A DNA stretch of 64,000 nucleotides from a virus. Numbering within the stretch: the first letter of the stretch is position 1; each line of letters begins with the position of its first letter. Shown piece after piece: positions 6,084 to 58,470 of the stretch. The stretch is taken from IMG/VR virus record IMGVR_UViG_3300017917_001739, positions 1 through 64,000 of that record, one strand, 5' to 3'. The position numbers and the translations under genes were made by a program. The notes beneath the pieces were generated by a model. It was given only the letters and a program-made list of their open reading frames with translations. It ran no database searches and had not been told where the DNA came from.

Positions 6084-6087
6084 TCCT

Positions 6088-7092: not shown

Positions 7093-7538
7093 TAGTTACT
7101 TACGATATGGATGGGGTTCTTGCTTTAAATCCACCACCAAATATAAAAAAATGGGGGCATATGAATGGTGCTGAAAGAAATGCAAGAAAGGAATTTTTAT
7201 ATGACTGGTATGAAAATGCTGAGTTGTTATTTAATCCTCCTGAAGAAAAATTCCATGTAATTTCTGCAAGAAAAAAAGACCAACGAACATGGGAAATAAC
7301 AAGTAACTGGTTGAATAAATATTTTCCGAATAGAATATTATCTATTAATCTTTTAAATACTTCAAGAACTGTGAAGAACGTTGTAGACTTTAAATCATCG
7401 ATTATTAATCATATTAATTCGATGGCTCATACAGAAGATAATGTAAGAGTATTAAAAGGACTAAAAAAATTGTGTCCAGAAACTAAATTATATTTCTGGG
7501 AAAAAGGAATGACTAATCCAATCATATTTCATGGCTAA
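7089..7538 (+). CDS. HAD-superfamily phosphatase-like protein
   Basis: The start is the ATG at 7089, which overlaps the previous stop (ATGA). An upstream in-frame start lies inside the glycosyltransferase gene. The N-terminus TYDMDGVLAL is the HAD catalytic motif DxDGV (Asp at residues 6 and 8), and VISARKKDQRTWEIT fits motif 2. At 149 residues it is a capless HAD. Its place in the TET/glycosyltransferase cluster suggests a nucleotide, polynucleotide or sugar phosphate substrate, but nothing in the sequence decides this. Confidence 0.65.
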   Translation: MIVTYDMDGVLALNPPPNIKKWGHMNGAERNARKEFLYDWYENAELLFNPPEEKFHVISARKKDQRTWEITSNWLNKYFPNRILSINLLNTSRTVKNVVDFKSSIINHINSMAHTEDNVRVLKGLKKLCPETKLYFWEKGMTNPIIFHG

Positions 7539-8127
7539 AAATTACTTTCATTTAAATATTCCTGGAATCACTTCACCATTAAATGAAGAAGGACAAATTT
7601 GGTTTAATAAACTTGGTCCTTGCTTTATTACAGTGCCGAAAGAATATTATAACCCAAAACTAATTTCGTGGGCAGAATCTCATGGATTAATGTATTGGGA
7701 TGCTGAAGTCTTTTCATTTCCTGCAAATTACTTTATGGAAATACATGTAGATGCAACTGAATTTAGTAATAAATGTAAATTAAATTGGGCATATTCAGAT
7801 AGTGAACATTATAATGTTTGGTATAAACCAAAATCTAATTGGGTTCCGAAAGCAACTGATGGAGAACAAGATGATGGTAAATATGATGATTATAGTTATT
7901 CATTTTTACCTGAAGAAGTTACTGAAGTTGAAAGATGTACTGTTCGAACACCAACATGTATTGTAAGTGGACAACCCCATAATGTAATTACTACTAATTC
8001 TCCAAGAAAAGCAATATCAGTATCTTTATACCCACTCGGATCGAATCCACCAACACTCCCAAAAGATTGGGGAATATCAATTGAAACTATGCGCGAAACT
8101 TTAAAAAATTATGTTGTCGAATATTAA
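7531..8127 (+). CDS. Family A oxygenase-like protein (HxD...H...R), member A0
   Basis: This 198-residue protein is a paralogue of the six tandem genes at 44-48 kb. It has H72-x-D74 (MEIHVDATEF), the LNWAYSDSE strand, H150 (GQPHNV) and R159, the spacing of a double-stranded beta-helix 2OG/Fe(II) enzyme. The PH-N-x-x-x-R pattern resembles aspartyl/asparaginyl beta-hydroxylases. It overlaps the HAD gene by 8 nt, so a copy of the large family belongs to the base-modification transcript. Substrate unknown. Confidence 0.6.
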   Translation: MAKNYFHLNIPGITSPLNEEGQIWFNKLGPCFITVPKEYYNPKLISWAESHGLMYWDAEVFSFPANYFMEIHVDATEFSNKCKLNWAYSDSEHYNVWYKPKSNWVPKATDGEQDDGKYDDYSYSFLPEEVTEVERCTVRTPTCIVSGQPHNVITTNSPRKAISVSLYPLGSNPPTLPKDWGISIETMRETLKNYVVEY

Positions 8128-27653: not shown

Positions 27654-27671
27654 AAAATAAGGGTGAATATT

Positions 27672-31436: not shown

Positions 31437-31437
31437 T

Positions 31438-36577: not shown

Positions 36578-36682
36578 ATGTTTTATATTTGGCACACATT
36601 ATTAATTGCGAGTTTTATTGCTTTAGCATTTGGTATGGGTTATAGTATGGGTAAAAAATCAATTAAGAGAAAAATAAAATAA
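36578..36682 (+). CDS. Membrane micro-protein (34 aa)
   Basis: One membrane helix (LLIASFIALAFGMGYSM) and a basic tail (KKSIKRKIK). AAAGGAG precedes the ATG, and its TAA overlaps the ATG of the aminotransferase gene. Confidence 0.5.
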   Translation: MFYIWHTLLIASFIALAFGMGYSMGKKSIKRKIK

Positions 36683-37902
36683 TGTATGAATTAAGAAATA
36701 TTTCTCACGGAGAAATAGAAAAAACAGTTGTAAAAACTGACAGATATTGGATAGTAATGTCTGATGGCACAAAACTATTAGACATGCAATCAGGCAATAG
36801 TGCTTATACACTTGGTTATAATAATACTGAGATTATAGAAGCAATGAATGATAAATTAAAGAATGTAACTTTTATTCGTGGAAATACTGGAGAAACTGAA
36901 GCTGATACAAAAGCAATGGCACAATTTGCGATGAATGCTGGTAAATTTGATGTTTTGGCTTGGGCTATCTCAGGAAGTAGTGCAGTTGAAGCTGCAATTC
37001 ATATGAATGATCTTTATTGGAAAAGAGTAAATCCAGAAAAAGAATTAATTATTACTATGGCTCCAGGATATCATGGAACAACTCATTTAACAAGAGCAAT
37101 GGGCAATCCATATACAATGGAGTTTCCGCACAATCGTATTCGTTCTGTAAATGCGCCAACATGGCAATTTTATACTGAAAGAGAAAAAGCAGAAAAAACG
37201 TCATTAGAATTATTAGTAAAACGTTTTGAAAGAGATTCAAAAACTATTGGTGCCTTTGTAATGGAAACATGTCCTTGGATTCATGGAATATTACCATACA
37301 GTGAAAATTGGTGGAAAACAGTTCGAGAACTTTGTACTCGTTATAATATTAATATGATTACAGATGATGTAGCAATATGTTGGGGTAAATCATTATCTTA
37401 TTTTGGATATAGTACTGCAGGATATAATATTAAACCAGATATTACAGCAATTGGTAAAGCATTAACTGCAGGATATGCACCACATGGAGCAGCACTTGGA
37501 AACGAAAGAATTGGTTCAGTATTAAAAGTGAATGAGTGGGAATGGGGACATACTTGGCAACCAAATATGGCTGGTATAGGTGCAATGAAAAAAGTAAAAG
37601 AAATAATTGAAAGAGATAATTTATTCGAAAAAGGTAAAAATATTGTAGAAAAATTAACATTAATTGGAGAAGAATTAAAGGCAGATGGTTTTGTAACAAA
37701 CATGAGAGCATCTGGGTTATTTCTTGCTCTTGACACTAAAGTAGGTCTAGGATTTCAGAGCATTTCTAATTTTGTAAAAGCTGGTTTAACTGCAACAACA
37801 ACACAAACAGGAGCAATAAAAATTATTTGCAATTTATTGGCAGATGACGAGTATTTCTTTGAATTACGAAAAAGATTACGTGTTTTCTTTGAAAAACAAT
37901 AA
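36682..37902 (+). CDS. Class III PLP-dependent aminotransferase, copy 1
   Basis: The 406-residue protein has the fold-type I class III pattern: WAISGSSAVEAAI (phosphate-binding), APGYHGTTHLTRA, MITDDVAICWGK with the PLP-nitrogen Asp at 228, and the Schiff-base Lys at 259 in ITAIGKALTAGYAPHGAAL. The usual DE-V is D-D-V. A paralogue lies at 57241. Family members use glutamate, ornithine, beta-alanine or glutamate-1-semialdehyde. The real substrate is not evident. Confidence 0.8.
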   Translation: MYELRNISHGEIEKTVVKTDRYWIVMSDGTKLLDMQSGNSAYTLGYNNTEIIEAMNDKLKNVTFIRGNTGETEADTKAMAQFAMNAGKFDVLAWAISGSSAVEAAIHMNDLYWKRVNPEKELIITMAPGYHGTTHLTRAMGNPYTMEFPHNRIRSVNAPTWQFYTEREKAEKTSLELLVKRFERDSKTIGAFVMETCPWIHGILPYSENWWKTVRELCTRYNINMITDDVAICWGKSLSYFGYSTAGYNIKPDITAIGKALTAGYAPHGAALGNERIGSVLKVNEWEWGHTWQPNMAGIGAMKKVKEIIERDNLFEKGKNIVEKLTLIGEELKADGFVTNMRASGLFLALDTKVGLGFQSISNFVKAGLTATTTQTGAIKIICNLLADDEYFFELRKRLRVFFEKQ

Positions 37903-42376: not shown

Positions 42377-42937
42377 ATGGTGAAAAAAGAGAATCTAAAT
42401 AATAATCCAATTAAGCCGATTATTACTGATTGCGGATATTATAGAAGACCAACACCAGAAGAGTTATATGGTATTGAGAAATTAATACAAAAATCTAAAT
42501 TTCATCAAAATACTAAAGACATGATGTATATGTGTATTGCTAATTTACACGATTTTACTATGTGTCATGGATTTGATGATTATGGTGCTATTGGTTTCGC
42601 TAAACTTTTAAAAGAATGTGGAATCAGTTTAGATAATTATATTACTCGTAAAAGAGAAAGCACTTCAAATTATGCATCAGTTATATTTACTGAGATAGTT
42701 AAATTATTTGAAGAAAACGATAATGATAAATCTAAAAGAGTTAAGGGTATAGGAAGACGTATATTAATTGCTAAATTAAAAGAATTACTTCCGAATGTTA
42801 AATCTAGTTTTATATCTAAGTCGATTAATTCGAATATAAAATTACAAGTATTAACATATATTACTCAAAGTAAATCAAGAAAATTGCTTATTAAGGGACA
42901 ATATTGGAATACGTATGTTAAATCTAACAAAGTTTAA
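42377..42937 (+). CDS. Hypothetical protein (186 aa)
   Basis: A basic helical protein with no recognised motif (PTPEELYGIEKLIQKSKFHQ, RVKGIGRRILIAKLKELL). It overlaps the desaturase gene by 23 nt. Might bind DNA or RNA judging by charge, but that is a guess. Confidence 0.55.
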   Translation: MVKKENLNNNPIKPIITDCGYYRRPTPEELYGIEKLIQKSKFHQNTKDMMYMCIANLHDFTMCHGFDDYGAIGFAKLLKECGISLDNYITRKRESTSNYASVIFTEIVKLFEENDNDKSKRVKGIGRRILIAKLKELLPNVKSSFISKSINSNIKLQVLTYITQSKSRKLLIKGQYWNTYVKSNKV

Positions 42938-43769
42938 ATCTTTTTTTAAAGATATATCTACTCGAAACAATCTTTATTTAAGAGTGGCTTATTATATTTT
43001 TGTACATTATTTGGCATTACTTGCTTTTAAATATGGAACGATTACTACAATTTTTGTTGCGATCAGTTTTTGGTTTATTGGCGCATTTGCAGTATCAGGA
43101 TATGCGCATCGTGCACTCGCACATGGTTCAGTAAAATTTAAAAGTAAAACATTAGAACATTTATCTAATATATTTGCAATATATTCTGGTATTGGAACAC
43201 CACTTGGTTGGGCAGCACTGCATAGAATGCATCATAGTTACTTAGATACGGATAAAGATCCACATAGTCCATGGAGAATAGGATTTTGGCGATCTTATTT
43301 TCATTTATGGGATTGGCGAAAAGAAGATGTACCACCAAAAATGACGGCAGGATTACACAGAAATACGATTGCATTACGATATCATTTTAAAGCAGTACAA
43401 ACTTTAATTATTTTTTGGGTATCTCTTTTTGTATTTGCAGAATTAGCTAAAGTTCATCTAAACATATTAGGTGGATTGCCTGTAATTACTGGTGCAGCAA
43501 TTGCTGTTGTATTTGGTATTCATGGAATGGGAATAACGAACGCAGTAAGTCATTCTGGGGAAAAGCCAAAAGATATAGTTTCATTGAATCCAATCGGTGG
43601 AGCATTTATCAATTTCGGAGAAGGACAACACGAGTATCATCATTATAAACCAATGGATTATAGTTTTGGAGGTGGAATAAGCGATCCGACTGCAAGAGCA
43701 CTAGAACTTGCAGAAAAATTAAATCTAGTACAAATTAATCGAACAATAACGAGTGAATTAAATGGATAA
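42915..43769 (+). CDS. Fatty acid desaturase (membrane, three His boxes)
   Basis: Membrane fatty-acyl desaturases use a di-iron centre held by three His boxes. All are present in this 284-residue protein: HRALAH (HxxxxH), HRMHHSYLDTDKDPHS (HxxHH) and HEYHHYKP (HxxHH), with hydrophobic membrane segments before and between. The layout is that of acyl-CoA or acyl-lipid delta-9 desaturases. It lies 4.3 kb before a ketoacyl synthase gene, so acyl-chain tailoring is plausible. Confidence 0.8.
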   Translation: MLNLTKFKSFFKDISTRNNLYLRVAYYIFVHYLALLAFKYGTITTIFVAISFWFIGAFAVSGYAHRALAHGSVKFKSKTLEHLSNIFAIYSGIGTPLGWAALHRMHHSYLDTDKDPHSPWRIGFWRSYFHLWDWRKEDVPPKMTAGLHRNTIALRYHFKAVQTLIIFWVSLFVFAELAKVHLNILGGLPVITGAAIAVVFGIHGMGITNAVSHSGEKPKDIVSLNPIGGAFINFGEGQHEYHHYKPMDYSFGGGISDPTARALELAEKLNLVQINRTITSELNG

Positions 43770-43927: not shown

Positions 43928-44003
43928 TCACTCGTAGTTCAATGGATAGAATGCCAGACTACGAATCTGGAGGTTGCAAGTTCGAGTCTTGCCGAGTGAG
44001 CCA
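43928..44003 (+). tRNA. tRNA-Arg (anticodon ACG) with encoded CCA
   Basis: The 76-nt sequence folds as a full cloverleaf. The acceptor stem is TCACTCG/CGAGTGA, with discriminator G and CCA encoded at 44001-44003. The D stem is GTTC/GAAT, and the anticodon stem CCAGA/TCTGG holds loop CTACGAA, anticodon ACG. The T stem is GCAAG/CTTGC with loop TTCGAGT. A34 would be read as inosine after TadA editing, decoding CGT/CGC/CGA. It stands directly upstream of the oxygenase island. Confidence 0.93.
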
Positions 44004-44011
44004 AAATTAAT

Positions 44012-44800
44012 ATGATTAGTTATGAACCATATGCAGTTCGTCTGCAATTACCAAAACCATTTTTAAAACCATATTCTTTGGAATCTTGGTTTTCGTTACT
44101 TCCATATCCAAAAAGATGGGAAATTAATCCAAGAAAAGAATATAAACCATATTCTTCAATACTTCATCCTACAATTCATAATTACTCAAAACAAATAGTC
44201 TGGAATAAAACAACTATCAACGAATCAGGTTATACATCTGGTGTAAGATATACTCAATCTAAAGATGATATTGAAAAATTTTCTAGTTATTCTAAAATAA
44301 GTTATTCTGAAAATAGAATAGAAATACCATATATTGGAGCACCTGAAGAATGGGAAGATAGTATCGATATTGTAGATAATGAAGTGTGTGATGAGTTAGT
44401 GTCTCCTCGTTTTACTTCTTTTTTAAATTCTAGAAAACTTAAACTGCTTGGTTGGGATATTTTTATTTCTGGTCCGAATGGTTGGTTAAGAACGCACCAA
44501 GATACTACATATGAATGTACTAAATTAAATTTTGTATATTGTTTTGATAAAAATGGATTAAGTCAACAAAACTATTATGATGAAAACGATAAACTTATTT
44601 ACGAACACAATTTATCTAATGATTGGACACAACCATCATTAACTAATGTAGGAAGAATGCATAATGTAGTAAATAAAAGTAGTGGTGTAAGAATTTGTTT
44701 ATCTTATAAAATTGGTCTTTTTCAAGCTGAATATTATGGTGATGAATACACACATTGGAAAGCAATTTATCCTATTTTATCCGATTTAGTTTTAAATTAA
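44012..44800 (+). CDS. Family A oxygenase-like protein, member A1
   Basis: First of six tandem paralogues. The 262-residue protein has an N-terminal YAVRLQLPKPFLKPYS segment (an LxLPxPF motif shared by most family A members), H162-x-D164 (RTHQDTTYECTKLNFVYCF), H217 (GRMHNVVN) and R227 (VRICLSY). These fit the 2OG/Fe(II) double-stranded beta-helix, nearest to aspartyl/asparaginyl beta-hydroxylases. The ATG is 9 nt after the tRNA. Long members A1 and A2 carry a 70-residue N-terminal insertion relative to A3-A6. Confidence 0.6.
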   Translation: MISYEPYAVRLQLPKPFLKPYSLESWFSLLPYPKRWEINPRKEYKPYSSILHPTIHNYSKQIVWNKTTINESGYTSGVRYTQSKDDIEKFSSYSKISYSENRIEIPYIGAPEEWEDSIDIVDNEVCDELVSPRFTSFLNSRKLKLLGWDIFISGPNGWLRTHQDTTYECTKLNFVYCFDKNGLSQQNYYDENDKLIYEHNLSNDWTQPSLTNVGRMHNVVNKSSGVRICLSYKIGLFQAEYYGDEYTHWKAIYPILSDLVLN

Positions 44801-44801
44801 C

Positions 44802-44808
44802 CTAAATA
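44802..44808 (+). promoter_or_regulatory. Putative late-promoter motif CTAAATA
   Basis: AACCTAAATA with 5 nt between the motif and the ATG at 44814. A T4-type late start would be at or next to the ATG. Confidence 0.4.
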
Positions 44809-44813
44809 GTAGC

Positions 44814-45620
44814 ATGAGTATATTTACAATTTATCCAGAAACACACATAGGCAATAGTTGTCCACCTTATGCAGTAAGGTTACAAATGCCAGCAGGCTTT
44901 ACAAAACCATATACATCTCAGGAATGGTTTGATTCGCTTCCAATACCACCATATTGGTTTGATGAGAAAGTCATACCAAAAGAAATTCAAGCAATCGAAT
45001 ATTTAATCCATCCACTTAAATGGGAAAGAAATTTAAAAGAAGCATCATATACTTCTAAAGAACCAATCATTAAATGGCATGATAAATTGCCATTTTGGTA
45101 TAGTTGCATCGATATTATTGATAATGATGTAAATGAAGACTTTATACATCCAAGATTTACGCGTGTATTAAAAGATGTTGGATTAGAAATTGCTCATTGG
45201 GATATTTTTATTACACCAGCAAATATGTGGTTGGGTGCTCATAAAGATGCTTGGCAGCAATCAACTAAACTTAATTTCGTTTATTGTTTTAAACAAGATG
45301 GATTAAGTCAACAAAATTATTTTAATATAGACGAATCAACAAAAGATAATGTTCCAGGAGATCATGATGTAAAATACTATATCGTAAAAGAAGTAGCACT
45401 ATCAGATGGTCCTAACAGTCCTCGTATGGTTCATCAACACAATTTATCATTCGATTTAACACAACCATCATTAACAAATATTGGTATATATCATAATGTT
45501 GTAAATACTACATCTGGTCCGAGAGTTTGTTTAAGTTATTCGCTTAAATTAATTGGAAAAGATTCTATTGGTAGATGGGATGAAGTATATCCTCGTTTAC
45601 AGCATTTACAAATTAATTAA
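44814..45620 (+). CDS. Family A oxygenase-like protein, member A2
   Basis: The 268-residue protein is the closest relative of A1: both have TKLNFVYCF, NGLSQQNY or DGLSQQNY, and TQPSLTN. Predicted iron ligands are H143 and D145 (GAHKDAWQQ) and H227 (GIYHNVVN), with R237 for 2-oxoglutarate. It probably arose by duplication from A1. Confidence 0.6.
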   Translation: MSIFTIYPETHIGNSCPPYAVRLQMPAGFTKPYTSQEWFDSLPIPPYWFDEKVIPKEIQAIEYLIHPLKWERNLKEASYTSKEPIIKWHDKLPFWYSCIDIIDNDVNEDFIHPRFTRVLKDVGLEIAHWDIFITPANMWLGAHKDAWQQSTKLNFVYCFKQDGLSQQNYFNIDESTKDNVPGDHDVKYYIVKEVALSDGPNSPRMVHQHNLSFDLTQPSLTNIGIYHNVVNTTSGPRVCLSYSLKLIGKDSIGRWDEVYPRLQHLQIN

Positions 45621-45623
45621 ATT

Positions 45624-46226
45624 ATGAAATACATCGTCGATTTGTCATTACCCTTTAAATCACCAACACCATTTGGTTTAGAATCATATAGAGAAATAGC
45701 ATTAAAAGAAATAGAGAAAGATCCATTAGTTCAAAATTATGGATTAGATCTACCACCATCAGCTGCAAGTTCAGTAGCACATTCTTTTTTTAAATCATAC
45801 GGATATCTTATAGTTGGTTGTGAATACTTTTATTTTCAACCGAAGTTTGCTATGGGTATTCATATTGATGGCTCTCGATATTGCCATAAAGCAAAATTTA
45901 ACTGGGCATTTGGTGGAAAACATTCATTCAGATTTTTTGAACCATTAACTTCAGGAGTTAGTGATGGTGTATCAAATAATGCGAATAGTCCATACAGTCT
46001 TCAATTTAAAGAAAATGAGGTTGAAGAAAAGGCAAATCAAACTACAGGAAGTCCATCTTTAGTTTGTGTAGGAGTACCACATCAAGTTATTAATGGATCT
46101 GAACCACTTGAATTATTTAATATTAGTATTTGGAAAGAAGGATTAAAACGAGAACAAGAATTTATAGATCTTGGTGGAATGAATATGGAAGAAGGATTAG
46201 AAGTTTTTAAAAAATATGTTATTTAA
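45624..46226 (+). CDS. Family A oxygenase-like protein, member A3 (2OG-binding Arg absent)
   Basis: The 200-residue protein has H80-x-D82 (GIHIDGSRYCHKAKFNWAF) and H153 (GVPHQVIN), but the conserved Arg ten residues later is missing (GSEPLELFNISIW). That could mean a changed co-substrate, use of another basic residue, or a dead enzyme. It overlaps A4 by 11 nt. Confidence 0.55.
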   Translation: MKYIVDLSLPFKSPTPFGLESYREIALKEIEKDPLVQNYGLDLPPSAASSVAHSFFKSYGYLIVGCEYFYFQPKFAMGIHIDGSRYCHKAKFNWAFGGKHSFRFFEPLTSGVSDGVSNNANSPYSLQFKENEVEEKANQTTGSPSLVCVGVPHQVINGSEPLELFNISIWKEGLKREQEFIDLGGMNMEEGLEVFKKYVI

Positions 46227-46899
46227 TTTTAAACATTTAAATAAAGAAAATATTCCAGAACCATTAACAAAAGAAGGAATGGATTGGATGCAGTCATATT
46301 CATTTACAAAACAAACTAAAATTTGGGTTGAAACAAAATATCATAATCCAGAATATTTGTTATGGTTAGAAACAATAGGATTAAGCATTACTGATATAGA
46401 ATTATTTTTAAATCCTGCAAATCATTCTATGCCTATTCATATAGATGGAAATGAATTACATGACGAGTTTAAATTAAATTTTGCATATAATCCTAGAGGA
46501 AATAGTTTAATGAATTGGTTTTCTCCACATAAAGAAGCGAAGGCAAAAAGAGAAGGAGTGTTATATGCTAATCAAGATGCAAGACCAATTAATACAAAAG
46601 ATTTATATTGGTATCCTGAAGAAGTTGATTTAATTGATTCTGCAGATATAGATGTAGCAATAGTACAAGTTGGGCAACCACATAATGTAAAAACTACATT
46701 TAGTCCAAGAAGATGTTTATCTTGTGTATTTGATAAAATTTTAATTAAAGATGTATTTACTACAAATGAAGCAATATTAAAAGGTATGCCACTTGAGACA
46801 ATCGCAATCGAAAGAGATAAAGCTGTAGACGCAAAGATATTACAAAATATTGTTACAATGCCTGAAGCAATAGAATTATTTAAGGATTATATAATATGA
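46216..46899 (+). CDS. Family A oxygenase-like protein, member A4
   Basis: The 227-residue protein has H75-x-D77 (MPIHIDGNELHDEFKLNFAY), H156 (GQPHNVKT) and R165 (SPRRCLSC). It is similar to A0 at 7531 in size and motif spacing (GQPHNV...SPR). It overlaps both neighbours (11 and 4 nt), which supports translation in one operon. Confidence 0.6.
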   Translation: MLFNFKHLNKENIPEPLTKEGMDWMQSYSFTKQTKIWVETKYHNPEYLLWLETIGLSITDIELFLNPANHSMPIHIDGNELHDEFKLNFAYNPRGNSLMNWFSPHKEAKAKREGVLYANQDARPINTKDLYWYPEEVDLIDSADIDVAIVQVGQPHNVKTTFSPRRCLSCVFDKILIKDVFTTNEAILKGMPLETIAIERDKAVDAKILQNIVTMPEAIELFKDYII

Positions 46900-47474
46900 A
46901 CAAATATTGCGTTCATTTAAATTTGCCATTTAAAAAATTATTTAACGTAGAAGATTGGAAAAAACTACTTCCAAAAAAAGGACATTTTCCAGTACCAAAA
47001 AATTTAATTGATAAAGAATTAATAGATTGGTTTGAATTAAAGGGATTTATATTAAAGAATGCAGATGTTTTTATTTCACCTCCTGCGTTTCGATTACCTA
47101 TCCATGTTGATGGTGAACAAATGAGCGATTCAGTTGCGATTAATTGGCAATTTTGTGAAGAATCAGGTTCTTATATGGAATGGTGGCAACCAAAAGATCC
47201 TAAAAAACATTCAATGGTTGCTCCAGGAACAGAAAAAGAAGCATATGCTATTTCGACAACACCATATGCACTCAACTGGAAAGATGATGAATGTAATTTA
47301 TTACATAGATCTGAAATAAAATTTCCATCATTAGTGAACATTGGAGTACCACATTCAATGACTAATGCTACTAGCAGTACAAGATGGGCAGTAAGTTTAA
47401 CTTGGTTTAATTATAAAGATATTAACATAGAATGGGATTATGCAATTACAAAACTTAAATCGTTCATTTCGTAA
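46896..47474 (+). CDS. Family A oxygenase-like protein, member A5
   Basis: The 192-residue protein has H70-x-D72 (LPIHVDGEQMSDSVAINWQF), H153 (GVPHSMTN) and R163 (STRWAVSLTW). The YCVHLNLPFKKLF start shows the family LxLPF motif. The ATG overlaps the previous stop by 4 nt. Confidence 0.6.
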   Translation: MNKYCVHLNLPFKKLFNVEDWKKLLPKKGHFPVPKNLIDKELIDWFELKGFILKNADVFISPPAFRLPIHVDGEQMSDSVAINWQFCEESGSYMEWWQPKDPKKHSMVAPGTEKEAYAISTTPYALNWKDDECNLLHRSEIKFPSLVNIGVPHSMTNATSSTRWAVSLTWFNYKDINIEWDYAITKLKSFIS

Positions 47475-48108
47475 ATTAAAATTACCATTTGAACATCCAT
47501 TTACAAACGATTATGTTTTTCCAAAAGAAAAAGATCAATCGATTGATGCGAAATACGCAGATCATTATGGAGAAAGACATTTAATTAATCCAAGTTTAAT
47601 TGATTGGGCAAAAAATATAGGATTGGGTGTATTAAGAATAGAAAGATTTTCAAGTAAACCAAATTATCGTATGTATGTACATACTGATAATGACGATTGG
47701 ATAGACAATATTGTTAAAATTATATGGTGTTATTGTCCAACTAACGATCATTCAATGGTTTGGTATGACGTAAAAGATCCGTCATGGTATGATACTATTA
47801 CAACTAATGACAGTGGTCCGACGATGAAATTTCCTGATTTTAATTTAAAAAAAGAAATAGCAAGACATACTATATTGCCGAATGAACCCATATTAGCAAA
47901 TACTGGACAGCCACATAACATAGAAAATGGCTCTAATTATCGTCATGTAGTTTGTGCTTGGTTTTATAAATTAAACTCAAACGAGTCTATAAACGTCGAT
48001 GGATTAACTTATCCGAAACCTCTTGAGTGGGACGATGCACTAAATAGTATGAAGAATTTTATAATTAATGATGAATTAAACGTTGATGATGCGAATCAAA
48101 TAATATGA
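47440..48108 (+). CDS. Family A oxygenase-like protein, member A6
   Basis: The 222-residue protein begins with LKLPFEHPF, has H81-x-D83 (YVHTDNDDWIDNIVKIIW), H159 (GQPHNIEN) and R168 (YRHVVCAWF). It overlaps A5 by 35 nt and the ketoacyl synthase gene by 4 nt, so the last oxygenase and the synthase are tightly coupled. Confidence 0.6.
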   Translation: MQLQNLNRSFRKLKLPFEHPFTNDYVFPKEKDQSIDAKYADHYGERHLINPSLIDWAKNIGLGVLRIERFSSKPNYRMYVHTDNDDWIDNIVKIIWCYCPTNDHSMVWYDVKDPSWYDTITTNDSGPTMKFPDFNLKKEIARHTILPNEPILANTGQPHNIENGSNYRHVVCAWFYKLNSNESINVDGLTYPKPLEWDDALNSMKNFIINDELNVDDANQII

Positions 48109-49283
48109 TGAATAAAATTTATGTTGTAGGTTATGGTATGATTGATAGTCTTGGGAATAATCCTAAAGATTGTTTTGATCGAATGTTAGATAATAATGAT
48201 TATTCTAAAGATATACCAGAACTGATTGCGGATAATAGTAAAGTATATAGAGGAGCAATATTTGATCCTAATACTTGTATTATACCAAAAGAATTTGACA
48301 ATAAGATGTTACGTTCATTAACAAATGCACAGAAAATGATGTTGCATGCTGTGAATGATGCACTGATTATGTCAAAATTACCACATCACTACGATGTGGC
48401 AACTCTTCTATCAACTGTGTCAAATGATACAGAATTTTTAGATGAGTTGTATTTACCGACGAAAAGTAATAAAAGAGTAAACCCACGTAAGAGTGCTAAT
48501 CGTATTCCAGATATGGGATGTTCTCATATTACTTCTCATTACAAATTTATGGGTCTAAGTGCTGCAACTTTCGCGAGTTGTTCAACTGGACTTGTAACTA
48601 TTGATTATGGAATGCGTCTCTGCGATGAATATGAATATGTCATTGTAGGAGGTGCAGATGCAGGTTGTTTTCCTATGGCGATTAAATATTTTAACACCTT
48701 AGGTGCAGTTGCGAATACAAGTATGCCTTTCGATGATTCTCGTGCAGGATTTCTGATGGGAGATGGATGTGGTGTACTTATATTACAAAGTGAAAAAATG
48801 GTCAAGAAATATGGCAGTACAGTGCATGCAACTTTATATCCTTGTGGTATGGCGAGTGATGCACTTGATATGACAAGTCCTGCAAATGATGGACGAGGTG
48901 CTCGTATTTCTATGTCTAAAGCAATGGGTCATGTGAATGATATAGATTTTGTGTGTGCGCACGCAACTTCTACACCAATTGGTGATCCAATCGAGTATGA
49001 AACAGTAGTCAGTTTCGTAGGTGAAAAACCTATTTGGGCTCCAAAATCCAAAATAGGACACACTCTTGCTGCAGCTGGTATATTAGAATGTATTTACTCA
49101 ATCCTTTCAATGAAAGAGGGAATCGTTCCACATATACAAAATTTAAAACAGGCATCTTGCGATACAAAAGGAATTTTGGTTCGTGAGAATTTAAAAACAA
49201 ACAAAAAAGTCTTGCGTACATTAAATAATTCTTTCGGTTTCGGAGGAAAATGTATGTCGCAAGTAATAGAGGTAAATAAGTAA
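48105..49283 (+). CDS. Beta-ketoacyl synthase (KAS II/FabF-like)
   Basis: KAS enzymes condense an acyl thioester with malonyl-ACP. This 392-residue thiolase-fold protein has the Cys-His-His triad: C159 in FASCSTGL, H286 in VCAHATSTPIGD and H319 in KSKIGHTLAAAG, so it should be active. The GFGG ending (NNSFGFGGKCMS) is also typical. No ACP, ketoreductase or other fatty-acid gene is visible in the window, so it would use host ACP. Placement inside an oxygenase operon is unusual for phage. Confidence 0.85.
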   Translation: MMNKIYVVGYGMIDSLGNNPKDCFDRMLDNNDYSKDIPELIADNSKVYRGAIFDPNTCIIPKEFDNKMLRSLTNAQKMMLHAVNDALIMSKLPHHYDVATLLSTVSNDTEFLDELYLPTKSNKRVNPRKSANRIPDMGCSHITSHYKFMGLSAATFASCSTGLVTIDYGMRLCDEYEYVIVGGADAGCFPMAIKYFNTLGAVANTSMPFDDSRAGFLMGDGCGVLILQSEKMVKKYGSTVHATLYPCGMASDALDMTSPANDGRGARISMSKAMGHVNDIDFVCAHATSTPIGDPIEYETVVSFVGEKPIWAPKSKIGHTLAAAGILECIYSILSMKEGIVPHIQNLKQASCDTKGILVRENLKTNKKVLRTLNNSFGFGGKCMSQVIEVNK

Positions 49284-49286
49284 AAG

Positions 49287-49778
49287 ATGACTCAAGCAAA
49301 GTTAAATCTACAGGAGTTTCCCCAACGCGAAACTTCAAAAATAAAATCTGTTCCTTCTTCACTTGAGAACAGTGGAAATAATAATGTGGGAAGAGTATTC
49401 CATGAAAAATATGCAGATACTGCTATTCAATCATGGGGTTATCACTTAATATTAGATGCGAAAGGATGTAAAAAGAATTTTAACGAACCTAAAATTCTAG
49501 AAACTTTCGTAGTGGATTTATTAAAAAGAATAAAGATGAATGCATGGGGAACCCCATGGATTACACACTTTGCTGAAAAGCCAGAAATTGCTGGTTGGAC
49601 AGTAATACAACCATTGACAACAAGTTCATTAACTATACACTTTTTAGATATAAATGGTGATATGTATTTTGATTTGTTTTCATGTAAAACTTTTGATATT
49701 GAAATGGTGAAAAGTATGATTATAGAATATTTTGATCCTATTTCAATGAAGGATCAATATCTTGTACGACAAGCATAA
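49287..49778 (+). CDS. SpeD-like pyruvoyl-dependent decarboxylase
   Basis: SpeD decarboxylates S-adenosylmethionine for spermidine synthesis. Phage homologues may also have become ornithine or arginine decarboxylases. The 163-residue protein has a GYHLILDAKGC start, TTSSLTIHF and YFDLFSCKTFD. Aligned with bacterial SpeD, S113 is the Ser that becomes pyruvoyl, H118 and C133 keep the exact 15-residue spacing of H68 and C83. The Glu before the cleavage site is Thr112 and the following His is Ser114. A 45-residue N-terminal extension precedes the core. Confidence 0.75.
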   Translation: MTQAKLNLQEFPQRETSKIKSVPSSLENSGNNNVGRVFHEKYADTAIQSWGYHLILDAKGCKKNFNEPKILETFVVDLLKRIKMNAWGTPWITHFAEKPEIAGWTVIQPLTTSSLTIHFLDINGDMYFDLFSCKTFDIEMVKSMIIEYFDPISMKDQYLVRQA

Positions 49779-50241
49779 TATAACACCAAAAGAAGCATTA
49801 CAAGAGTGGCTGGCGAGGATTAAAATTCCTCGTCAAGCACTCGATGGTCATTCTATTTGTCCTTTCAGTAAAGGTATTAGTGTGCCAACTCCAGAATATT
49901 TACATATGGACGAAAATTTTATAGCTCCATCTGTTGAGAATATTCGAAGAATTAAAGTATATACAGTTACAAATTTAAACATTACACCTGAATCTATGGA
50001 TTCTTGGTGTTCTTTCTATGCGAACAAATTTCCAGATTTAATATTTTTAGCTGACCATAAAGATCGTAAAACATTTATAAATGGCGTACAAACAAATAAT
50101 GGTTATTATAATTTTATGTTATGCCAACCTAAAAAAGAATTAAATGAAGCAAGAGATTCACTAATTAAAACAAATTATTATAGTTTTTGGGATGAGAATT
50201 ATCTCAAAGATGTATGGGGTAAAGATTATCAACCTAAATAA
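49762..50241 (+). CDS. Unknown protein with CPFSKG motif (159 aa, TTG start)
   Basis: The frame starts at TTG 49762, with AAGGA 8 nt before it and overlapping SpeD by 17 nt. No better start exists without losing the first conserved part. The motif GHSICPFSKG at about residues 29-38 could be a metal or catalytic Cys site. The rest is alpha/beta. I recognise no family. It always stands between SpeD and the amidinotransferase here, so it may be part of the pathway. Confidence 0.55.
   Translation: MYDKHNITPKEALQEWLARIKIPRQALDGHSICPFSKGISVPTPEYLHMDENFIAPSVENIRRIKVYTVTNLNITPESMDSWCSFYANKFPDLIFLADHKDRKTFINGVQTNNGYYNFMLCQPKKELNEARDSLIKTNYYSFWDENYLKDVWGKDYQPK
50234..50240 (+). promoter_or_regulatory. 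Putative late-promoter motif CTAAATA at the amidinotransferase start
   Basis: AACCTAAATA overlaps the upstream stop codon with 7 nt to the ATG at 50248. The overlap with coding sequence makes chance more likely, but spacing matches 9029 and 44814. Confidence 0.35.
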
Positions 50242-50247
50242 ATTATT

Positions 50248-51336
50248 ATGAGTGTTTGGACAGATTATGATCCTTTAGAGGAAATTATAGTAGGAAATAT
50301 TCCTACACCTGATTATTATAAATCGTTTGTAAGTGCAGAAGTAATGCGTGTGTTAGAACCCATTATTCTTGAAACTAAAGAAGATTTAGATAATATGCAA
50401 AAAGTATTTGAATCTTTAAATGTAAAGGTTTATCGTCCAGAAATACTTCCGTTTGAAAGTAATTTAAAACTTCCTAAATTTAAAATTAAAAATCCTATCG
50501 CACCAATTGTTCCAAGAGATTCCTATATTGTTTATGGAAATACAATCTATTCAGCATATACTTCAATGGCTGATCGATGGTTAGAGTCATTAGCATTTTA
50601 TAATATATTTTTAGAAAAGTACACAAAAAATTCTTATAACTGGATAAGTACACCAGTTCCACTACTTAAAGATTTTCCACCTGACACTCAATGGTTTACA
50701 CATGGTGGCGACAGATATGGAAGAGATTTGGTGAATAGAATATTATGGCATACTGCAACAATGTATAAAGTTGGCGATTCAATAATTGTAAATTCAGCTG
50801 GTCCTGGAACAGCATTAGGATTAGATTGGATGAAAAGAAATATTCCTTCTACAAAATTTATTGATAATGTAAATAAGCCACATCGTGGTTGGGGACATAT
50901 CGATCAGTTCTTTTTTATGACTAATGACACTACTTGTTTTTGTACAGATATAAATTATGTACCAGAAGCTATATTGAAAAATAAAAATATAAATGTACAT
51001 TCTTTTGGTCATTTAATTACAAATATAGATATGATACAATACGATCATCGAATGACAGCTTCAGAAGGAAAATATAGTATTGAATGGATTAAAGAATGGA
51101 TATCTGAGTGGCGTGGATTCGCACAAGAAGTTGCTTTTGATAGTAATGTCGTAGTGGTAGATGAATCGAACATAGTTGTAAGCAATCATCAACCAAAATT
51201 AGAAGAATTTTTTAAATCGCATGGAATTAAATTACATGTGGCAAATCAAAGACAAGGTGGTTTTTGGGATGGTGGTGTTCATTGTTTAACACTTGATATA
51301 AAAAGAAAAGGGGAACGAAGAAATGTCTTGGATTAA
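50248..51336 (+). CDS. Amidinotransferase (AGAT-like, pentein fold)
   Basis: Arginine amidinotransferases move the amidino group of arginine to an amine such as glycine, or are the related arginine deiminases. The 362-residue protein has PRDSYIVYGNTIY, WFTHGGDRYGRD, RGWGHIDQFFF (catalytic His with the HxD pattern) and C346 in GGVHCLTLDI as nucleophile. The start VWTDYDPLEEIIVGN is typical of the family. In this operon it may act on a product of the neighbouring SpeD/KAS/oxygenase enzymes. Confidence 0.82.
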   Translation: MSVWTDYDPLEEIIVGNIPTPDYYKSFVSAEVMRVLEPIILETKEDLDNMQKVFESLNVKVYRPEILPFESNLKLPKFKIKNPIAPIVPRDSYIVYGNTIYSAYTSMADRWLESLAFYNIFLEKYTKNSYNWISTPVPLLKDFPPDTQWFTHGGDRYGRDLVNRILWHTATMYKVGDSIIVNSAGPGTALGLDWMKRNIPSTKFIDNVNKPHRGWGHIDQFFFMTNDTTCFCTDINYVPEAILKNKNINVHSFGHLITNIDMIQYDHRMTASEGKYSIEWIKEWISEWRGFAQEVAFDSNVVVVDESNIVVSNHQPKLEEFFKSHGIKLHVANQRQGGFWDGGVHCLTLDIKRKGERRNVLD

Positions 51337-52366
51337 TATAAAAAATTATAATCATTATTCTGATTTAGAAAAAATAGTTCCATACTTACAACAAGATATA
51401 TTAGCTTGGGTACAAAAACATAATATAGAAACAGATGCATTAAGTGCTTATGGTACTGGAGATAAAGCAAAAACTAAAATTAGCCGTTTAACGACTGTAC
51501 CAAAACAATATGTTGGCGAATTGACTGAAGTTCCTTCAAATAATTTAGAATTTAAACATGCAGATGATTGGAAAACTATTCCATGTTATTATAATAGAGT
51601 TTGGGATAAAATAGTTTTTCCTAAGTCTTGGGAAGCATTGAGTAAATTAAATGGAGTGTATCAAATACTTATAAATTTTATCAAACCACATGGTAAAATA
51701 ACTCCACATAAAGATACAAGTAATTGGGATCGTATTGAAGAACAATTAAAAAGAAAAGTAGATGGTTATAGTGCGGTTGTTACATTATTTTCTGGAATGA
51801 AAAACAAAAATGAAAAAACAGTAGGAATGGATGTCGAAGGAATTCAAAAATATCCACTAGCAGGAGAAATAGTTTGTTTTGATGGTAAAGAAGCTGGCCA
51901 TAGTATGTGGAATGACACGAATGAGTGGAGAATTACAGCAGTTATAGATATTGATAAAAAACATTTTATTAATGAGAGATTAAAAGAAATTATTATTAAT
52001 GGTAATAAAGAAACAATTATATTACCTAAAAAACCACATCCGATAATTAAATTAGAAAACGATCATTATGTAACTTTAAAAGAACCAACTATAAGAGAGA
52101 TAAATATAGTTGTAGATTCAGAAAATGAAAGCATTATCTATAAACATATTCTTTCGAATGTTAAATATTTAACAGATAATGGTGGAATAAAACATTATGT
52201 TGATTCAGTACCAGACGATGAATTGCTTTTTTATTGGAACAATTTAGGATCTAAAACGATTAATTTATTAAAACAGTATTTTATAGAATATAAAGAATAT
52301 CATAATATAATGAATTATATAGAATTACATGCAGAAGAAATGATAGAGGATTCAAAGGGAGAATAG
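51323..52366 (+). CDS. Family B Asp/Asn-hydroxylase-like protein, member B1
   Basis: First of four tandem paralogues, overlapping the amidinotransferase gene by 14 nt. The 347-residue protein has H129-x-D131 (ITPHKDTSNWDRIEE), GEIVCFDGKEAGHSMWN with H193, and R203 (EWRITAVID). The FDG...H...N...WR-x-x-x-x-D block is close to aspartyl/asparaginyl beta-hydroxylases. It alone carries a C-terminal extension of about 130 residues without known motif. Confidence 0.68.
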   Translation: MSWINIKNYNHYSDLEKIVPYLQQDILAWVQKHNIETDALSAYGTGDKAKTKISRLTTVPKQYVGELTEVPSNNLEFKHADDWKTIPCYYNRVWDKIVFPKSWEALSKLNGVYQILINFIKPHGKITPHKDTSNWDRIEEQLKRKVDGYSAVVTLFSGMKNKNEKTVGMDVEGIQKYPLAGEIVCFDGKEAGHSMWNDTNEWRITAVIDIDKKHFINERLKEIIINGNKETIILPKKPHPIIKLENDHYVTLKEPTIREINIVVDSENESIIYKHILSNVKYLTDNGGIKHYVDSVPDDELLFYWNNLGSKTINLLKQYFIEYKEYHNIMNYIELHAEEMIEDSKGE

Positions 52367-52370
52367 AATT

Positions 52371-53090
52371 ATGTGGATTGATACTAAATTATATAAAAAT
52401 TATGACGATTTAATGTTTTTAGGCAAAGTAATACAATCAGACTTTGAAAAATGGAAACTTAAATATGGTACAAATGAAGCATATGCAAAACGTATTCAAG
52501 TTCAAAAATTTGAACATCATGACGTCTATCCAGATTATGCTCATGTAAAAGGTGGTGACGATCTATACCATAGACCAGAATCTATTGAAGATCGACATAA
52601 TCCAAACGAATATTGGTTTTGCGATGCAGTATTTACTGATTGTGGAAATAAGAAAATGAAAAATTTTGAAGACTGGAAAGAGTCAGCAGAATTGGCTTTA
52701 AAACTTCCAGGAATAGTACAATTTATTGTTAATTTTGTAAAACCAAAATCAGAATTGCCATCTCATGATGATACAGGTGGATGGAAAAGAATTGAAAAAG
52801 ATATAGGAAGACCACTAAATGGATTCAGTAATGTATTAGGATTAGCAACTAATGCTACTAATATGGGATTTGTTTTTAAAAATAGATACACTGGAGTACC
52901 AGAAAAAAAAGGTTGGAATAGTGGTGAGTGGGTTTCTTTCGAAGGAAAAACACATTATCATGATGTATATAATCATAGCAACGACTGGCGTGTTACAGCA
53001 ATTATAGATTTAGAATATACGCAATATAATTTAAAAAATTCAGACCTCTATTATTTACAAAATAGATGGGCTACTTATACAGGAGAATAA
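52371..53090 (+). CDS. Family B Asp/Asn-hydroxylase-like protein, member B2
   Basis: The 239-residue protein starts MWIDTKLYKNYDDL, like B3 and B4. Predicted ligands H132 and D134 (LPSHDDTGGWKRIE), H197 (HYHDVYNHSNDWR) and R207. GGGAG precedes the ATG. An insertion around residues 45-75 distinguishes it from B3. Confidence 0.68.
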   Translation: MWIDTKLYKNYDDLMFLGKVIQSDFEKWKLKYGTNEAYAKRIQVQKFEHHDVYPDYAHVKGGDDLYHRPESIEDRHNPNEYWFCDAVFTDCGNKKMKNFEDWKESAELALKLPGIVQFIVNFVKPKSELPSHDDTGGWKRIEKDIGRPLNGFSNVLGLATNATNMGFVFKNRYTGVPEKKGWNSGEWVSFEGKTHYHDVYNHSNDWRVTAIIDLEYTQYNLKNSDLYYLQNRWATYTGE

Positions 53091-53091
53091 T

Positions 53092-53667
53092 ATGTGGATA
53101 GATCCAAAAAAATTCAAACATTATGAAATGTTAAAATCGTTATCAGTTGCTTTACAAGCAGACTATTCTACATTTTCAAGGAATCATAATATTAAAGAAA
53201 AAGGAATTAATGTTTTTCGTTACGAATATCCAAATGCAGAACATGAACATGCAGATTCTTGGTGGGCTATTCCACTTATACAAGGAACAAAAGCTGTACC
53301 TAATGACTGGCATCGTTCTACTGCAGTTTTAAAAGAAATTCCTGGAGTATTCCAATCAATAGTAAATTTCATTACACCATTTGGTGGATTACCATTACAT
53401 AAAGATTTTGGTAGTTGGCAAAGAATTGAAGAATCAGTTGGTCATGCTGTAAAAGGCTGGACTATTGCAATCGGTATTGATATGCCAAGCAATGATCCGA
53501 AAATACTTGGAATAGAATTTGAAAACGATTCAGCTCCAAGAGCATATGCAAATAACGAAATAGTTGCTTTTGATGGAAGAAATTATATGCATAAAGTTTG
53601 GAATAAAACTGGAAATTGGAGAGTGTCTGCAATTGTAGATACAAATGAAACAGAGTGGGCTTTATAG
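53092..53667 (+). CDS. Family B Asp/Asn-hydroxylase-like protein, member B3
   Basis: The 191-residue protein is the shortest member and shows the core: MWIDPKKFKHYEML start, PGVFQSIVNFITPFGGLPLH with H103-x-D105, then EIVAFDGRNYMHKVWN with H167, and R177 (NWRVSAIVD). ACAGGAGAA precedes the ATG. Confidence 0.68.
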   Translation: MWIDPKKFKHYEMLKSLSVALQADYSTFSRNHNIKEKGINVFRYEYPNAEHEHADSWWAIPLIQGTKAVPNDWHRSTAVLKEIPGVFQSIVNFITPFGGLPLHKDFGSWQRIEESVGHAVKGWTIAIGIDMPSNDPKILGIEFENDSAPRAYANNEIVAFDGRNYMHKVWNKTGNWRVSAIVDTNETEWAL

Positions 53668-53677
53668 AGGAGGAATT

Positions 53678-54259
53678 ATGTGGTTAGGTGATCCAATACA
53701 ATATAAAGATTATGGTGCATTGCAAAAGCTCATGCAAGCCCTTTTAAACGATTATGCAGCATGGAGAAAGAATTTTAGTATAGAAACTGATACTGTGAAC
53801 GCAGACGAAAGATACGCAATGCCTGAAGCGAATAAAGGGGGTTTTAAGGCTCTTCCTGTAATAGATGGTCGAAAAGTACAAGAAAGGTGGAGTTTAGGTT
53901 GGAATCGAAGCATGAAAGCAGCATTTGAAATTGAAGGAATGATTGATATGTGTATTAATTTTATTCGTCCAGGAAAAATGCTTCCAGTCCATCATGATGG
54001 TTATGTTTGGGATTGGATACGTCAAAGTGTTGGAGATCCATCAATTAGTGGATATACAGTAAGTTTTGGAATTGATATACCAGATCCAGAAAATCAAGCA
54101 TTGATATTTGATGGAATTAAAAGAGTTTGGAAAACTGGAGAATTTAGAGCATTTAATGGACATGATATTCAACATCAATTAGTAAATAATGCAACTAATC
54201 CAGAACATTGGAGAGTAACTGCAGTAATGGAAATAGAGGGTAAATATTTTAACATATAA
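53678..54259 (+). CDS. Family B Asp/Asn-hydroxylase-like protein, member B4
   Basis: The ATG at 53678 follows a very strong ribosome site (GAGGAGG), preferred over an upstream ATG at 53645 inside B3. The 193-residue protein has H105-x-D107 (LPVHHDGYVWDWIRQS), H166 (IQHQLVNN) and R179 (HWRVTAVME). An Asn-Pro insertion lies between the last His and Arg. It ends the island, and a promoter follows within 6 nt. Confidence 0.66.
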   Translation: MWLGDPIQYKDYGALQKLMQALLNDYAAWRKNFSIETDTVNADERYAMPEANKGGFKALPVIDGRKVQERWSLGWNRSMKAAFEIEGMIDMCINFIRPGKMLPVHHDGYVWDWIRQSVGDPSISGYTVSFGIDIPDPENQALIFDGIKRVWKTGEFRAFNGHDIQHQLVNNATNPEHWRVTAVMEIEGKYFNI

Positions 54260-57152: not shown

Positions 57153-57244
57153 TGAATATAAAACAACATAAACCTAGTATTTGGGTAGTGCTAATTATTA
57201 TTGGTTGGTTATTAGCTATCGTATCCATTGTTTGTTACTTATGA
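57152..57244 (+). CDS. Membrane micro-protein (30 aa)
   Basis: A basic start (MNIKQHKPS) and one membrane helix (IWVVLIIIGWLLAIVSIV). It overlaps the stop of the exonuclease and the ATG of the aminotransferase gene. Confidence 0.45.
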   Translation: MNIKQHKPSIWVVLIIIGWLLAIVSIVCYL

Positions 57245-58470
57245 TTGAATTAAAACCAAATAGCACTCAAGAACATATTAAAGAAATTGCCTTTACAGAA
57301 AAATATTGGGTACATTATTTAAATGCACCTCCACATTTAGAAATACAATCTGGTAATGCTGCTTTCGGTTTAGGTTATCAAGCTGAAGATTTAAGAGATA
57401 TACTTTCAAAAAATAAAATAGATTTTATTCGTGGAAATAGTGGTGAAACAAGTGAAGTTGTTGAAAAATTAAATGAGACACTTTGTTCTACTGCAAATAT
57501 GGAAAGTATCGCTTATGCAGTTTCAGGCTCAGATGCAAACGAAGCTGCCATTTATATGCATGATACTTATTGGGTAAATATTGGAAAACCAAAAACACAT
57601 TTAGTAAGTTTTTATCCTTGCTATCATGGAACTACATATTTAAATCGACAATTTAAAAATGATATGCTTCCGAGCAAAGAACTAAGTCGTGTTAAAATGA
57701 TTCGTGGTAAAGAATGGTACACGGACGCTGAACGTATAGAACATGAAACAATGCTTACTGATTCTTTCATTACCACTTTACAAGCAAATCCAACTATTGG
57801 TGGATGTATAATGGAAAGTATGCCTTGGAATGAAACGATTGCGCCATATAGTCAAGAATTTTGGAAAACTATTCGACAAATTTGTGATGAATTTAATATA
57901 TTAATGATTGTTGATGATGTAGCAGGATATGGTGGTAAAGTAGGAACACTTTTTACACATACATATTATGGAGTAACTCCAGATATTGTAACAATCGGAA
58001 AAGCATTAACAAATGGAATGGTTCCTTTAAGTGCAGCATTAGCGAATGAAAAAGTTACAAAAGGAGTTCGTAAAAAGAATTGGGATTGGGGGCACACTTG
58101 GCAACCAAACATGTACGGAGTAGAACTTGCGAATAGAGTAATTGAGATATTAAATTCTAAAGGTTATTTAACGACGGATCATCAAAATTATATTGGTAAA
58201 AAGATAAAAGAATTAGAAACATTCCTTGTGAATGAAAAACTTGCGACATCTATAATTGGTAAAGGTTGCTGGAGATCAATTCAAACTAATCCAATTGCAA
58301 CTCCTATTGGTTTATATCATTTAAGTAATGCTGGAATGGCAGCAACTACTTCTCATAAAATGATTAAATTAATTTTGCCACTGATTGTAGATGACGAATA
58401 TTTTGACGAATTAAAGGCGAGAACGACTTTATGTTTAACAACTAGAAAAGAGGAGATAGAAAACTTATGA
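57241..58470 (+). CDS. Class III PLP-dependent aminotransferase, copy 2
   Basis: The ATG at 57241 matches the family start, and a longer frame would cover the micro-protein. The 409-residue protein is a paralogue of the enzyme at 36682: both have IQSGNAAFGLGYQ or MQSGNSAYTLGYN, FIRGN-G-T, a GY-HGTT loop, MIVDDVAGYGGK and the Schiff-base Lys in IVTIGKALTNG. As in copy 1, the usual D-E-V is D-D-V. The pair may act on different steps of one pathway or form a hetero-oligomer. It overlaps the next gene by 4 nt. Confidence 0.8.
   Translation: MIELKPNSTQEHIKEIAFTEKYWVHYLNAPPHLEIQSGNAAFGLGYQAEDLRDILSKNKIDFIRGNSGETSEVVEKLNETLCSTANMESIAYAVSGSDANEAAIYMHDTYWVNIGKPKTHLVSFYPCYHGTTYLNRQFKNDMLPSKELSRVKMIRGKEWYTDAERIEHETMLTDSFITTLQANPTIGGCIMESMPWNETIAPYSQEFWKTIRQICDEFNILMIVDDVAGYGGKVGTLFTHTYYGVTPDIVTIGKALTNGMVPLSAALANEKVTKGVRKKNWDWGHTWQPNMYGVELANRVIEILNSKGYLTTDHQNYIGKKIKELETFLVNEKLATSIIGKGCWRSIQTNPIATPIGLYHLSNAGMAATTSHKMIKLILPLIVDDEYFDELKARTTLCLTTRKEEIENL

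Follow-up and report, generated by a model that had tools for sequence, protein, structure and literature searches.

Tandem oxygenase-like genes within a recurring desaturase and ketoacyl synthase gene module of uncultured T4-like phages

What might six adjacent, diverged copies of an oxygenase-like gene do in one phage? The question is raised by a 64,000-nucleotide (nt) stretch of DNA (positions 1 to 64,000 of IMG/VR virus record IMGVR_UViG_3300017917_001739; here called the window), in which an array of six paralogues, termed the A family, follows a tRNA-Arg gene. The window was taken from a 68-kb virus record with T4-like genes, presumably that of a virus of aquatic bacteria, and its gp41 shares approximately 61% identity with the gp41 proteins of Kyanoviridae isolates, among them Methylophilales phage Melnitz and Synechococcus phages. 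The array was found to be one block of a conserved module, in which a fatty-acid desaturase gene lies upstream and a ketoacyl synthase gene downstream, and not the isolated curiosity that a first reading had made of it. The features of this core, together with A0, a seventh A gene elsewhere in the window, are as follows (ORF, open reading frame; aa, amino acids).

42915..43769, plus strand: fatty-acid desaturase; solved relatives are acyl-coenzyme A (CoA) desaturases (E 1e-5)
43928..44003, plus strand: tRNA-Arg(ACG); precedes the A array and is kept there in the freshwater-type clade described below
44012..44800, plus strand: A1, A-family oxygenase-like protein, 262 aa (ORF calling, motif, BLASTP among paralogues)
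44814..45620, plus strand: A2, A-family oxygenase-like protein, 268 aa (ORF, fold model); recent-duplication partner of A1
45624..46226, plus strand: A3, A-family protein, 200 aa; HxD...H present, Arg absent
46216..46899, plus strand: A4, A-family oxygenase-like protein, 227 aa (ORF, tree, purifying selection)
46896..47474, plus strand: A5, A-family oxygenase-like protein, 192 aa (ORF, modelled as a double-stranded beta-helix, selection)
47440..48108, plus strand: A6, A-family oxygenase-like protein, 222 aa (ORF, selection); 4-nt overlap with the synthase start
48105..49283, plus strand: FabF-like ketoacyl synthase (PF00109/PF02801); catalytic residues intact
7531..8127, plus strand: A0, A-family oxygenase-like protein, 198 aa (BLASTP, tree); adjoins the TET/JBP cluster

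The initial annotation had described six adjacent genes encoding proteins of 192 to 268 aa behind a tRNA-Arg, with a seventh copy at 7531, and all three statements were borne out: ORF calling returned six adjacent plus-strand ORFs at 44012-48108, the tRNA-Arg(ACG) was found at 43928-44003, and the ORF at 7531-8127 is linked to the array by BLASTP. All-against-all BLASTP of the window proteins placed A0 to A6 in a single paralogous set (E 3e-53 to approximately 2e-3) and linked no other window protein to it. The motif order claimed for the copies holds in part. HxD and the distal His were aligned in seven of the seven window copies, and the HxD...H triad in 22 to 25 of the 25 A-family sequences aligned, whereas the Arg located 9 to 10 residues past the distal His is present in A0, A1, A2, A4, A5, and A6 and absent from A3 (VPHQVINGSEPLELFNIS), as it is from the A3 orthologue in contig L032. 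Likewise, the H-x-x-x-N motif is found in most copies, but T replaces N in A4 and A0.

Recurrence of the module in three phage lineages

A scan based on the synthase recovered 28 viral loci. Because such a scan ascertains loci on the synthase, a second scan was added from the A side, in which the desaturase lies upstream in 28 of 28 loci and the synthase just downstream in all 25 with enough sequence, many of the contigs being identical to those of the first scan. Contig L178 was considered as an A locus lacking the synthase and was rejected as such, since the contig stops short of the expected synthase site, past an inserted gene at 7047-7604. This gene of L178, a marine-type contig, appears to be alpha/beta-hydrolase-like, with a GNSMG motif and a Pfam match below the cut-off.

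The array ends at 48108, but the run of genes does not; it continues to 54259 and adds four further oxygenase-like genes, termed B1 to B4. From A1 to B4 (44012-54259), 14 genes are packed with spacings of -35 to +13 nt, and ten of them (six A and four B) are oxygenase-like. The genes beyond the synthase are as follows.

49287..49778, plus strand: SpeD-family pyruvoyl decarboxylase (PF02675), perhaps an ornithine decarboxylase from residues near the processing site
49762..50241, plus strand: conserved gene, function not assigned (phrog_10325)
50248..51336, plus strand: amidinotransferase-like protein; nearest solved structure HsvA
51323..52366, plus strand: B1, PF05118-type hydroxylase (26.4 bits against the Pfam cut-off of 22.6)
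52371..53090, plus strand: B2, PF05118-type hydroxylase; below the Pfam cut-off, B1 paralogue
53092..53667, plus strand: B3, PF05118-type hydroxylase; below the Pfam cut-off, B1 paralogue
53645..54259, plus strand: B4, PF05118-type hydroxylase; below the Pfam cut-off, B1 paralogue

The order of desaturase, A array, and synthase recurs across three phage lineages, two of which are designated freshwater-type and marine-type as working clade labels and not as annotated habitats. The freshwater-type clade (L007-L020, L032, and the window) carries the complete set, with SpeD, the amidinotransferase, and B genes, wherever the contig reaches. The marine-type clade (L021-L024, L026-L029, L033, and L034) carries a minimal set of the desaturase, two A genes, and the synthase, without SpeD, amidinotransferase, or B genes; its paired A genes overlap, with either the synthase or a small gene immediately after them. 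In the third lineage (L145 and L146), four or five A genes precede the synthase, the first of them divergent, and in L145 the SpeD gene, a gene of the 49762 type, the amidinotransferase, and B come after the synthase. The A and B genes are further tied together because an A gene sits within the B array in L018 (14960-15655), L019 (14941-15741), and L008 (5590-6285). In the alignment, the embedded copies of L019 and L008 lack HxD, and they are likely to be noncatalytic paralogues.

Two further genes were observed at related loci. In the freshwater-type clade, a gene encoding 223 aa (L007, 7290-7961), absent from the window, lies after the tRNA-Arg and before the array; it matches phrog_3704, named 'ferredoxin,' but no iron-sulphur cysteine motif was seen in it. 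At 3607-6397 of L051, a phage contig in a metagenome-assembled genome (MAG) of Flavobacteriales, a related synthase appears to stand beside IscA-, TusA-, and IscU-like genes.

Fold, distribution, and age of the A family

The A proteins have no credible match in Pfam, PHROGs, or PDB sequences, and a search of the A profile against PDB sequences gave chance-level matches only. The AlphaFold2 model of A5, with 27 family members as the alignment, had a predicted local distance difference test score (pLDDT) of 90.3 and a predicted template modelling score (pTM) of 0.87, and the A2 model, with 19 members, had values of 80.6 and 0.82, respectively. A double-stranded beta-helix (DSBH) was looked for and predicted in both. 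In Foldseek comparisons with the PDB, both models matched at a probability of 1.0, with E values of approximately 1e-4 and template modelling (TM) scores of approximately 0.3 to 0.4; the neighbours include NO66, FIH, YcfD, KanJ, EvdO2, TYW5, and cysteine dioxygenases. Since a probability of 1.0 goes with modest E values and low TM scores, the predicted fold class, a cupin/DSBH of the 2-oxoglutarate (2OG) type, is clear, yet the nearest enzyme is not. In the A5 model, H70 and D72 end the strand at 65-72, H153 starts the strand at 153-157, and R163 starts the strand at 163-171. Metal- and 2OG-binding residues placed on strands in that order are canonical for 2OG oxygenases. A comparison with viral models returned numerous matches, at TM scores up to 0.87, to unnamed proteins assigned to 'uncultured Caudovirales phage,' which indicates that relatives of the A proteins are present in UniProt without a described function.

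The A proteins had initially been likened to 2OG/Fe(II) hydroxylases of the PF05118 kind. The fold models are in agreement with the general class, but the family placement was rejected: none of 27 A proteins matched PF05118 at an E value of 0.1 in Pfam, and hhalign of the A profile against that of the PF05118-type B proteins gave a probability of 2.9% over 22 aligned columns. Members of PF05118 (AspH, LpxO, and OlsC) do share with A the HxD...H order, with the Arg 9 to 10 residues past the distal His that most A copies have, and the DSBH fold, predicted in the case of A; moreover, the adjoining B genes resemble the family, and LpxO and OlsC act on acyl chains (PMC5767591). Unlike them, the A proteins lack a Pfam match and a profile alignment with B and occur only in viruses of the sample. 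JmjC-type and related 2OG oxygenases (NO66, FIH, YcfD, EvdO2, and KanJ) have the cupin/DSBH fold predicted for A and the same residue order, but they differ from A in the low TM scores given above, in identities of 10 to 16%, and, for most of them, in their larger size. Taken from the models, the A proteins are probably Fe(II)/2OG-dependent DSBH oxygenases, although not every copy need be a 2OG enzyme, since Arg or HxD has been lost in some.

The A family is virus restricted in the sample searched. A profile search found it in 20 of 21 virus records, which are fragments, and, with these records as the positive control, gave no match in 793 bacterial genomes (398 of the Marinomonas phylum and 395 of the phylum of a Flavobacteriales MAG). 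No matches were obtained with tblastn of A0, A2, and A5 against 50,697 phage records, and no close relatives of A2 or A5 were found when viral contigs were scanned for each singly. In the phylogenetic tree, A6, A4, A5, A0, A3, and A1 plus A2 each cluster with orthologues of other phages, in most cases strongly supported, which indicates that the copies are old and that their order has largely been kept; A1 and A2 form a recent duplication pair. Ratios of nonsynonymous to synonymous substitution rates (dN/dS), calculated for A4 to A6 among close relatives only, with distant pairs dropped because of saturation, were 0.08 to 0.29 for A4, 0.06 to 0.08 for A5, and 0.02 to 0.14 for A6, in the same range as that of the synthase (0.09 to 0.13). 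A4, A5, and A6 are thus under purifying selection. Because its positions have orthologues elsewhere and these three genes are under such selection, the array is far beyond what chance would leave. The suggestion in the initial annotation of several related substrates or successive hydroxylations would fit with such old, separately kept orthologous groups.

Other enzymes of the run, neighbouring loci, and known phage systems

In the synthase, Cys159, His286, Lys314, and His319 are invariant among ten phage sequences, with C159, H286, and H319 forming the Cys-His-His triad. The protein falls below the NCBIfam fabF equivalog cut-off (205 versus 493.75 bits), and a scan of cellular genomes with it returned FabF-like proteins at approximately 30% identity and one phage contig in a MAG. 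The SpeD protein matches PF02675 and scores 25.3 bits against the TIGR03330 equivalog, for which the cut-off is 75.65. It contains VIQ, TTSS, IHF, and YFDLFSC, so that Gln, Thr, Phe, and Tyr lie close to the processing site, a putative match to the residue set reported for SpeD-derived ornithine decarboxylases (PMC10407285). It also resembles the phage SpeD-derived ornithine/arginine decarboxylases, among which five homologues from uncultured freshwater phages decarboxylate ornithine in vitro (PMC9992855), but amidinotransferase or hydroxylase partners are not described there, both terms being absent from that paper. The amidinotransferase matches HsvA at an E value of 3e-19 and StrB and AGAT at approximately 1e-15, contains the GHID and GGxHCxT regions, and has no match to a Pfam or NCBIfam model. 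B2 to B4 have sub-cut-off matches to PF05118 only (E 1e-2 to 2e-4).

The Campylobacter phages CP220 and CPt10 are likewise T4-like and have five radical S-adenosylmethionine genes clustered round a related amidinotransferase (PMC2853527). In contrast, their enzymes are oxygen independent and accompanied by sugar-transferase-like genes, and the cluster lacks the synthase, SpeD, and A. The amidinotransferase is the sole homologous gene between those modules and that of the window, and CP220 gp085, considered as a counterpart of the 49762 gene, was rejected on comparison. T4-like cyanophages also carry several 2OG enzymes per genome, with up to approximately five such genes tabulated, and P-HM1 and P-HM2 have two asparaginyl hydroxylases, an acyl carrier protein (ACP), and its synthase (PMC3037559). 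In P-HM1, however, the genes for the hydroxylases, the ACP, and its synthase lie apart from one another, and no A-family member is present; a direct acyl-carrier link through this phage was rejected because of that dispersal.

Several other loci were noted. On either side of the module, 36682-37902 and 57181-58470 encode class III aminotransferase paralogues that are 35% identical. At 4788-8127, a TET/JBP gene (PF12851) comes right after gp41 and is followed by a gene read from its sequence as glycosyltransferase-like (6088), a polynucleotide-kinase/HAD-like gene (7032), and A0, which together make a probable DNA base-modification cluster. In the marine-type contigs L045 (12928-18510) and L175 (6026-11527), the TET/JBP gene is followed by genes for an FkbM methyltransferase, PF18724 (amino acid:DNA transferase), an inositol-phosphate synthase, a small unassigned protein, and PF18751 (P-loop kinase). 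A second tandem paralogue pair at 30741-32118, before nrdB, shows H-x-D...H-R motifs without a Pfam match, is paired in record G006 too, and is a candidate for further 2OG oxygenases. Ahead of nrdA, the gene at 27663-28262 is weakly PF13640 2OG oxygenase-like, and its PHROG name, 'DNA endonuclease V,' looks like a mislabel.

A possible acyl pathway and its rivals

An acyl substrate is suggested for the A enzymes since the array is constantly accompanied by the desaturase and by a ketoacyl synthase whose catalytic residues are intact. Tentatively, and with somewhat less than even confidence, the A proteins may be tailoring oxygenases of a phage pathway that has the desaturase, A array, and synthase as its core and an acyl-derived compound as its substrate. 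A host acyl chain, reached through host ACP or CoA, would be shaped by the desaturase and synthase, and one A enzyme after another would hydroxylate that chain, or its conjugate, at different positions. LpxO and OlsC provide a precedent for acyl-chain hydroxylation by enzymes of the AspH family (PMC5767591). In the freshwater-type and third lineages, SpeD, the HsvA-like amidinotransferase, and the PF05118-type hydroxylases may extend the pathway. The SpeD-type decarboxylase would probably convert ornithine to putrescine, and the amidinotransferase would transfer the amidino group of arginine to an amine. Amidinotransferases that use arginine as the donor release ornithine, which, from this known chemistry, could feed the decarboxylase. 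The pathway may yield a modified host lipid or a polyamine-acyl conjugate that is both hydroxylated and guanidinylated, and the tRNA-Arg(ACG) probably lies outside it. We infer the catalysis, the common pathway, the acyl substrate, the product, and its role in infection. The fuller proposal, that the 14-gene cluster of this T4-like lineage, with its ten oxygenases, produces, during infection, a remodelled host lipid or an acyl-polyamine that is guanidinylated and hydroxylated several times, with each virus-only oxygenase paralogue serving one position, is doubtful as a whole.

Several points weigh against an acyl pathway. Gene adjacency is no proof of a common pathway, the contig fragments L025, L030, and L051 carry the synthase but no A genes, and tRNA genes stand between the desaturase and the array in several phages. 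In addition, A3 and the first marine-type copy lack the Arg, an embedded copy has lost HxD, and a crude motif scan of two long relatives gave no convincing ACP. An explanation that dispenses with a single pathway supposes that separately useful metabolic genes, for drawing down 2OG, supplying polyamines, and changing lipids, have gathered in a hyperplastic region. Cyanophage 2OG oxygenases have indeed been proposed to modulate host 2OG (PMC3037559), and the absence of SpeD, amidinotransferase, and B from the marine-type lineage, together with the loss of catalytic residues in some A copies, would suit it; but the identical gene order in three lineages, overlaps of 1 to 4 nt, and purifying selection argue the other way and leave it quite improbable. 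Equally slight is the probability that A and B hydroxylate residues of host or virion proteins, as FIH, NO66, YcfD, and AspH do, with targets differing by paralogue. The nearest solved folds of A include the protein hydroxylases NO66, FIH, and YcfD, and the B genes resemble AspH-type hydroxylases, but these fold matches are weak and extend to the small-molecule oxygenases KanJ, EvdO2, and MysH, and this reading gives no account of the synthase, desaturase, SpeD, and amidinotransferase.

Hypermodification of phage DNA is a serious rival because TET/JBP genes occur in the same phages, near A0 in the freshwater-type clade and near candidate modification genes in the marine-type clade. The A (and B) enzymes would then oxidise or decorate hypermodified bases together with the TET/JBP, glycosyltransferase-like, and amino acid:DNA transferase gene products, and polyamine and guanidino groups derived from SpeD and the amidinotransferase would be put on the bases. 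Of the eight records of at least 60 kb that were searched, seven contain TET/JBP (PF12851). A0 lies within the TET cluster of both the window and G006, and in marine-type relatives TET is followed by genes for an amino acid:DNA transferase, an inositol-phosphate synthase, and a P-loop kinase. However, the array lies approximately 40 kb from the TET cluster and accompanies the synthase and desaturase instead, neither of which has a known place in base modification. Furthermore, the A0 orthologue of L145 and L146 sits in the array and is not known to adjoin TET, and phage Melnitz has a TET/JBP match and no A gene. This explanation is weakened, as the array does not track the TET/JBP locus, and it is judged improbable.

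Literature searches returned no earlier case of a phage that combines a ketoacyl synthase with a desaturase, and, as far as was found, such chemistry, in which a fatty or polyamine-like compound is built and decorated, has not been described for such viruses. The A family itself is unnamed in every curated library searched and virus-only here. The interest of the finding lies in the conserved module and not in a proven function. If the acyl pathway is true, uncultured T4-like phages would encode a multistep small-molecule or lipid pathway, and the synthase, decarboxylase, amidinotransferase, and ten oxygenases would offer concrete enzymes with which to address why aquatic T4-like phages accumulate 2OG oxygenases.

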